Of a stretch of 64,000 nucleotides of DNA, positions 37,217 through 38,139 are shown piece after piece. Under the pieces are notes generated by a model, which saw only the letters and a list, made by a program, of their open reading frames with translations, searched no databases and was not told where the DNA came from. Made by a program: the position numbers and the translations under genes. Numbering within the stretch: the first letter of the stretch is position 1; each line of letters opens with the position of its first letter. Source of the DNA: Devosia sp. RR2S18 (lineage in GTDB: Bacteria; Pseudomonadota; Alphaproteobacteria; Rhizobiales; Devosiaceae); contig NZ_CP126539.1 in assembly GCF_030177755.1 (NCBI RefSeq), forward strand, positions 2,008,001 to 2,072,000, read 5' to 3'.

Positions 37217-38139
37217 TTACGACTGGTGTTCTTCAATCTCGAACCGGATTTGCCGAGCAGCCGCCTCGCAACGGGCATCAATCCAGGTGAGCATGCGATG
37301 TTCCCCTGCAAGAGCTCTCTCATGGAGCTCCGCAAGCCCGATGCGCAGTTGGTACGCTGCAAGCAAAGACGGCCTATTGAAAAGCTCAGGGTGATGCTCC
37401 TCCAAATGCCGCGCCTGAGCCTCCATGCAGGGCAACCAAGGGCGCCAGAAGAATATGTTGGCGATGTCATAGAGCGGGTCACCAAACATTGCCTCGCTCC
37501 AGTCGATTACGGCGGTAACCTGGCCTTGACTGACGATCACATTGTTGGAGCCGAAGTCGCCATGCACCAGGTGACGTTTTTCCGGGAACAGAGACCCGCA
37601 GTCTCGCAGCAGAGACAAATGAGAGGCCGTGCGCGCCTGGAGTGAGTGCGGTAGCGATTCCCAACGGTAATGGCTTTTGTTAGCGATACTGAGGATGAAT
37701 GCGCGCCAGCTTGGAAATGCGGCTTCTCCAGCGGAGTTGAAAGGGCCGAAGCCACTGGTCTCTCCTAGAGGAGCGCTGGCGAGCACCTTCATCGTTTGCG
37801 CAACAGGACCAACGATGCTGGATAGTTCGGCAGGTCGCAGATCCTGAAGCGTGCAGCCGATGGCGCGGCGAGACATACAGAACGCATGACCCATTAGCTC
37901 GCCAATGCGCACAATCGCCGGGATGGGCAGAAGGGCTGAAGCAAAGCGCTCGTGGCAGAAAGCATCTTTCTCAAGCCAGCGGCCCGAGCATTGATGCGCA
38001 GGATGAAGTCGTCGGTGCCAAGCCGCACAGAAAGCGTTTGGGAGTCTTCGCCGTCCGTCACGGTTCTCCAGCCGGAGATCGTGCCTAATTCCGCTTCTAC
38101 GGCAGCAAGAACAAGAGCAATATCGAGCTTGGGCTTCAT
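37217..38139 (-). pseudogene. Frameshifted hygromycin B 4-O-kinase homologue
   Basis: Two overlapping frames together encode one APH-family phosphotransferase. The N-terminal part starts at the ATG at 38139 (MKPKLDIALVL) and reads DDFILRINARAAG. At about 37973 the frame shifts: inserting one T into GGCTTGAG would restore GFEKDAFCHERFASALLPIPAIVRIGEL and join it to the second frame (to 37217). The product resembles Aph(4)-Ia (hph) along its length, sharing SRRA-GxTLQDL, TSGFGPF, VH-DFGSNNV, the catalytic IDWSEAMFGD and NIFFWRPWL. The HGDFGSNN and IDW motifs are intact. Either the gene is inactivated or one base was lost in sequencing. It is divergent from the ABC-2 transporter operon. Confidence 0.85.

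Follow-up and report, generated by a model that had tools for sequence, protein, structure and literature searches.

The window analysed here, 64,000 nucleotides of Devosia sp. RR2S18 (contig NZ_CP126539.1, positions 2,008,001 to 2,072,000; coordinates below count from its first base), carries at 38139-37217 on the minus strand two reading frames that jointly encode one relative of Aph(4)-Ia, the hygromycin B 4-O-kinase. We consider it likely that this is a chromosomal gene for an Aph(4)-type hygromycin B kinase, gained laterally by a Devosia and disrupted by a single frame break. The parts of the gene are listed below. The N and C pieces are the homologous stretches on either side of the break, and P0001 is a metagenome protein (source Logan) of 307 amino acids (aa).

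Frame structure of the kinase gene

37975..38139, minus strand: N piece, kinase residues 1-55, comprising N-lobe strands 1-3 by the secondary structure of the P0001 model; 51/55 residues identical to P0001.
37894..37974, minus strand: tail of the N frame past the break, 26 codons without homology, then a TAA stop (37896-37894).
37973..37975, minus strand: frame break site, one base missing relative to a continuous reading, at the start of the helix after strand 3 (P0001 model).
37217..37972, minus strand: C piece, 251 residues and the stop, with the remaining N-lobe and the whole C-lobe, including the catalytic HGDFGSNN and IDWSEA motifs.
37892..37896, minus strand: TAATG, the N-frame stop overlapping a C-frame ATG; a possible re-initiation site.

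Read from the ATG at 38139 the N frame is 81 aa long, or 159 aa from an earlier ATG in the same frame, and homology in the C frame runs from 37972 to 37220 (251 aa) ahead of a stop codon at 37219-37217. P0001 implies a gene of 308 codons, stop included, which would be one base longer than the window gene. The continuous reading frame of Aph(4) kinases is lacking, with one break between 37975 and 37972. A previous sequence-only reading of this DNA had described two minus-strand frames overlapping at about 37973 with one base missing, and the limits of homology agree with it, the N homology ending at 37975 and the C homology starting at 37972. The five motifs that it named are present, all of them in the C frame.

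As sequenced, the gene should not yield a working kinase. Translation from 38139 would give N-lobe strands 1-3 followed by 26 unrelated residues, and the catalytic lobe, if made, would be a separate chain without strands 1-3; with the N-lobe split and the catalytic lobe separate, no working enzyme is expected. Expression as two chains, in which the N frame stops at TAATG (37896-37892) and translation re-initiates at the overlapping C-frame ATG, is very improbable. If true, the product would be a kinase in two parts, or else the catalytic lobe on its own with some residual role, and the re-initiated C chain would be without residues 56-82. Stops overlapping an in-frame ATG account for 37 of 443 in the same offset frame of 33 open reading frames (ORFs) in the window, so the TAATG overlap is unremarkable and is no evidence by itself.

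Assignment to the Aph(4) family

Identity to P0001 is 93% for both pieces (234/251 residues in the C piece). Taken from the first GTG, the C frame (231 aa) matches 3w0m, a solved structure of Aph(4)-Ia, with an E value of 4.5e-68, the next chain having 1.3e-5, and the C piece matches Pfam PF01636 (APH) at 67.7 bits, above the curated cut-off of 23.2. With this partial 231-aa protein as query, the NCBIfam APH(4)-Ia model gives 221.5 bits, which does not reach the named-allele cut-off (NF000107, 725 bits), and the Aph(4)-Ib model (NF000342, cut-off 500 bits) gives 37.7 bits. Apart from the query being partial, an identity of 49% is itself a long way from the named Aph(4)-Ia allele. The N piece alone has a weak NCBIfam match (E 0.024) and no Pfam match; it is identified by its match to P0001 and by its score of 66 against Aph(4)-Ia, the highest of 500 shuffles scoring 53.

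In a set of 134 relatives (compiled without L001, L086, L026 and L084), 54 columns reach a conservation of at least 95%, and the two pieces together keep all of them. The kept catalytic motif positions correspond to D198, N202, N203 and D216 of Aph(4)-Ia, and the conserved columns include D198, N202 and N203, which are mutated in PDB entries 3w0p, 3w0r and 3w0q. The earlier description of a chromosomal Aph(4)-type homologue in an environmental host, with one break and intact catalytic residues, is borne out. Grouping with macrolide or choline kinases, the outcome it had named as contrary, was not seen, the next best NCBIfam models scoring 38 bits or less. The chance that the gene encodes a macrolide, choline, homoserine or other PF01636 kinase appears negligible: the PF01636 match and weak cross-matches are compatible with such an enzyme, but the family-model scores already disfavour it.

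Distribution

The genome of the strain is one contig of 3.97 Mb and is 99.94% complete, and no second aph(4)-like copy was found in it with either of two queries. Matches occur in 33 of 75 genomes of the genus at E <= 0.001 and in 20, the own genome included, at E <= 1.3e-40. Of 1461 candidate public proteins, 314 have matches at E <= 0.001. In the 120 of these that were listed the family is broad, mostly chromosomal and environmental (Hyphomicrobiales, Paenibacillus, Chitinophaga and others), and the lineage of the window gene and P0001 is isolated, the next relative being 52-53% identical. Matching plasmid records number 691, every one of them less than 60% identical to the window, and the plasmid collection contained no near match to the DNA at 36600-38500. 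A phage origin was rejected, with no match in phage records and two pattern-matching stretches in viral contigs, none of them confirmed. No report of an aph(4)-type gene in Devosia was found in the literature covered, outside which most subscription journals lie. A family search for small-subunit ribosomal RNA gave 0 matches in this genome, but the search is unreliable, as 9 of its 14 controls gave signals.

Phylogeny, probable lateral acquisition and likely substrate

A quick tree comprised 139 rows. They were the window C piece, the 120 listed proteins except P0032, P0065, P0084 and P0110 (116 rows), 19 other Devosia copies, two plasmid-borne homologues (the Hph of pSDM007 from Pseudomonas hygromyciniae and one from Campylobacter) and an outgroup, the last being one distant PF01636 kinase from the own genome; the characterised enzymes included were those of the Aph(4) type. 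A careful tree kept 131 rows after eight long or duplicate rows were dropped. The window gene and P0001 form a pair (support 100) inside a 36-row clade in both trees (support 99 and 100/99), which also holds pSDM007 Hph and Paenibacillus, Mesorhizobium and Rhizobium proteins and includes no other Devosia copy. The window gene thus groups with a characterised hygromycin kinase in both trees. Aph(4)-Ia lies outside this clade; its own clade (99/95) has 5 rows, a Bosea protein among them.

The gene was probably gained laterally, upstream of an ABC transporter cluster, since it falls apart from the other Devosia copies and in the 36-row clade with pSDM007 Hph. Together with this tree position, the guanine-plus-cytosine (GC) content suggests the same: it is 57.4% in the gene, compared with 61.3% for the window, and it drops to 54-60% at 36750-38249, with 61-68% in the regions on either side. 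A search for mobile-element ends near the kinase gene gave short imperfect repeats only.

Intact relatives would act as stand-alone kinases, inactivating hygromycin B by phosphorylating it with a nucleotide as donor. For the window lineage, which is 49-53% identical to characterised enzymes, this is the activity that intact members most likely have, because two characterised members, Aph(4)-Ia and pSDM007 Hph, sit in neighbouring parts of the tree. The structures of Aph(4)-Ia include complexes with hygromycin B (PDB), and the pSDM007 report describes growth of E. coli TOP10 in hygromycin B when hph was cloned with its own promoter (PMC10581066). These two enzymes speak against the suggestion, which we regard as unlikely, that the family acts on another small molecule and takes hygromycin B as a side substrate. 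The breadth and chromosomal location of the family (the 314 proteins and 20 of 75 genus genomes above) would suit such a role, but its distribution is patchy, and no shared neighbour family was found among 10 flanking proteins from five loci of relatives, as expected for a stand-alone resistance gene; both features suit a resistance gene better than a gene of a pathway.

Several points weigh against a laterally acquired hygromycin B kinase gene. The enzymes tested by others are distant enough, at the identities given, for a change of substrate, and, with weak support (86/73) for joining the 36-row and Aph(4)-Ia clades, they do not firmly bracket the window gene. Forcing the window gene and P0001 to group with a ten-row Devosia clade costs 37 log units (approximately unbiased (AU) test, p 0.033) and with the D. 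nitrariae/D. geojensis clade 44 log units (AU p 0.027), in line with lateral gain, but the groups for these values near 0.03 were picked after the tree was seen. The AU test uniting all Devosia rows (p 2.6e-27) says little about the window and was set aside because the Devosia rows alone do not form one clade. The source of P0001 is not assembled to a genome, one contig of 2965 bases being listed for it, and the GC difference is small.

Origin of the frame break

The break would stem from an inactivation that is very recent or from an error in the sequence. The lone lesion and intact catalytic residues stressed in the sequence-only reading stand, and both of the explanations it offered are retained here. 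A real and recent inactivating mutation, in an acquired gene that is being lost under no current selection, has a slightly better than even chance of being correct. The gene is the sole aph(4)-like copy in the genome, it lies in a low-GC stretch of the kind left by a recent arrival, and the neighbouring genes are clean of frame breaks. Pfam matches were found in 28 of 30 window ORFs scanned (two ORFs had none), with none seen continuing into an adjacent frame, and 0 frame breaks were found in 864 kb of the own genome, a small sample (59 strong tblastn queries, 19 places, 26 kb). This absence of other split genes leans towards a true, isolated change. The rest of the gene shows no decay, which tells against a gene being lost; the division of its 21 differences from P0001 into 8, 9 and 4 ties gives no hint of relaxed constraint, so that the break, if real, is recent. 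Faster decay on the window side, as read from quick-tree branches of 0.044 vs 0.0098, was rejected, not being upheld by the site count of 8 vs 9.

A sequencing or assembly error, in which case the gene of the strain would be intact and working, is a serious contender that falls somewhat short of an even chance. It would account for a single lesion in a gene that keeps all 54 conserved columns, with changes on the window side not in excess. It is harder to reconcile with the lack of any other split gene among the 30 window ORFs or the 26 kb, and with an assembly of one nearly complete contig.

Genomic context

38183..40821, plus strand: ABC transporter ATPase and two ABC2_membrane_6 permeases; a divergent neighbour, conserved in the genus and separate from the kinase gene.

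The ABC transporter cluster is present in 45 of 75 genomes of the genus. Local synteny did not serve as a check on the frame: in 200 kb round the cluster in each of two genus members, matches >120 bits showed essentially no conserved block beyond its three genes, and the remaining matches were mostly paralogous transporters. A promoter scan was uninformative, with 0 promoter-like sites vs 0.5 expected. At 36733-36969 on the minus strand lies a 78-aa ORF without a Pfam match, in the low-GC stretch adjoining the kinase gene.

Comparison with known relatives

P0001 and the window gene start and end alike, and they differ in that the frame of P0001 is uninterrupted. Other Devosia aph(4)-like genes, such as those of D. 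geojensis (P0105) and D. nitrariae (P0070), encode the same enzyme family at 46-48% identity over the window C piece, but belong to other clades and mostly have no frame break. The proteins named D. nitrariae and D. geojensis correspond to the genus copies in genomes G022 (100% identity) and G012 (99.7%), respectively. TAG codons in two Devosia matches were rejected as breaks, since frames of 301 and 296 aa run stop-free through the match. One Devosia copy (L026; G066:C26, about 1273-2100) encodes 275 aa with an unrelated tail, its near relative P0104 having 295 aa, and may also be broken close to its end. Another (L084; G060:C1:1484831-1487406) has an unusual C-terminal extension, with a 333-aa tree row and a long branch. 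The Campylobacter coli plasmid pN61740F carries at 28973-29890 a homologue (L083) that is 36% identical to the window C frame and lies beside an ANT(6) gene; it is annotated to the aminoglycoside phosphotransferase family only and has a long branch inside the aph(4)-like family.

Hph of pSDM007, which shares the 36-row clade, is 53% identical over the C piece and 38% over the N piece. We infer that NZ_CP070507.1 83406-84344, the sole matching place on that plasmid, is the published hph. Unlike the window gene it is intact, and the plasmid that carries it is conjugative; a relaxase-like gene and IS26 lie nearby.

Gene aph(4)-Ia, in wide use as a selection marker, is widespread on enterobacterial plasmids, as seen in the plasmid collection search, and this spread and its marker use give the family its relevance. 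Its nearest relatives in the tree set do not exceed 55% identity to it (P0031); they are P0073, P0053 (Bosea sp. Root483D1), P0090 and P0029, and they give a clue to the lineage from which aph(4)-Ia came. By the tree, Hyphomicrobiales relatives such as Bosea appear closer to Aph(4)-Ia than the window gene is.

Aph(4)-Ia (PDB 3tyk, 3w0m-3w0s) and the window gene product are alike in fold, catalytic motifs and all strongly conserved positions, with 49% identity over the C piece and 28% over the N piece. The possibility raised earlier that the window gene is an ancestor of the resistance gene finds no support, given this C-piece identity and the 36-row clade (100/99), which excludes Aph(4)-Ia. 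As for the companion suggestion of a sister gene, placing the window gene and P0001 directly beside the Aph(4)-Ia clade lowers the likelihood by 20 log units but is not rejected (AU p 0.112); this group, too, was picked after the tree was seen. The window gene is a cousin of aph(4)-Ia, not its ancestor, and its isolated lineage samples a further branch of the aph(4)-like family. It is a further member of the known Aph(4) kinase family, broken and probably gained laterally, and it adds to a broad, mostly chromosomal environmental family whose genes cross phyla and are sometimes broken.
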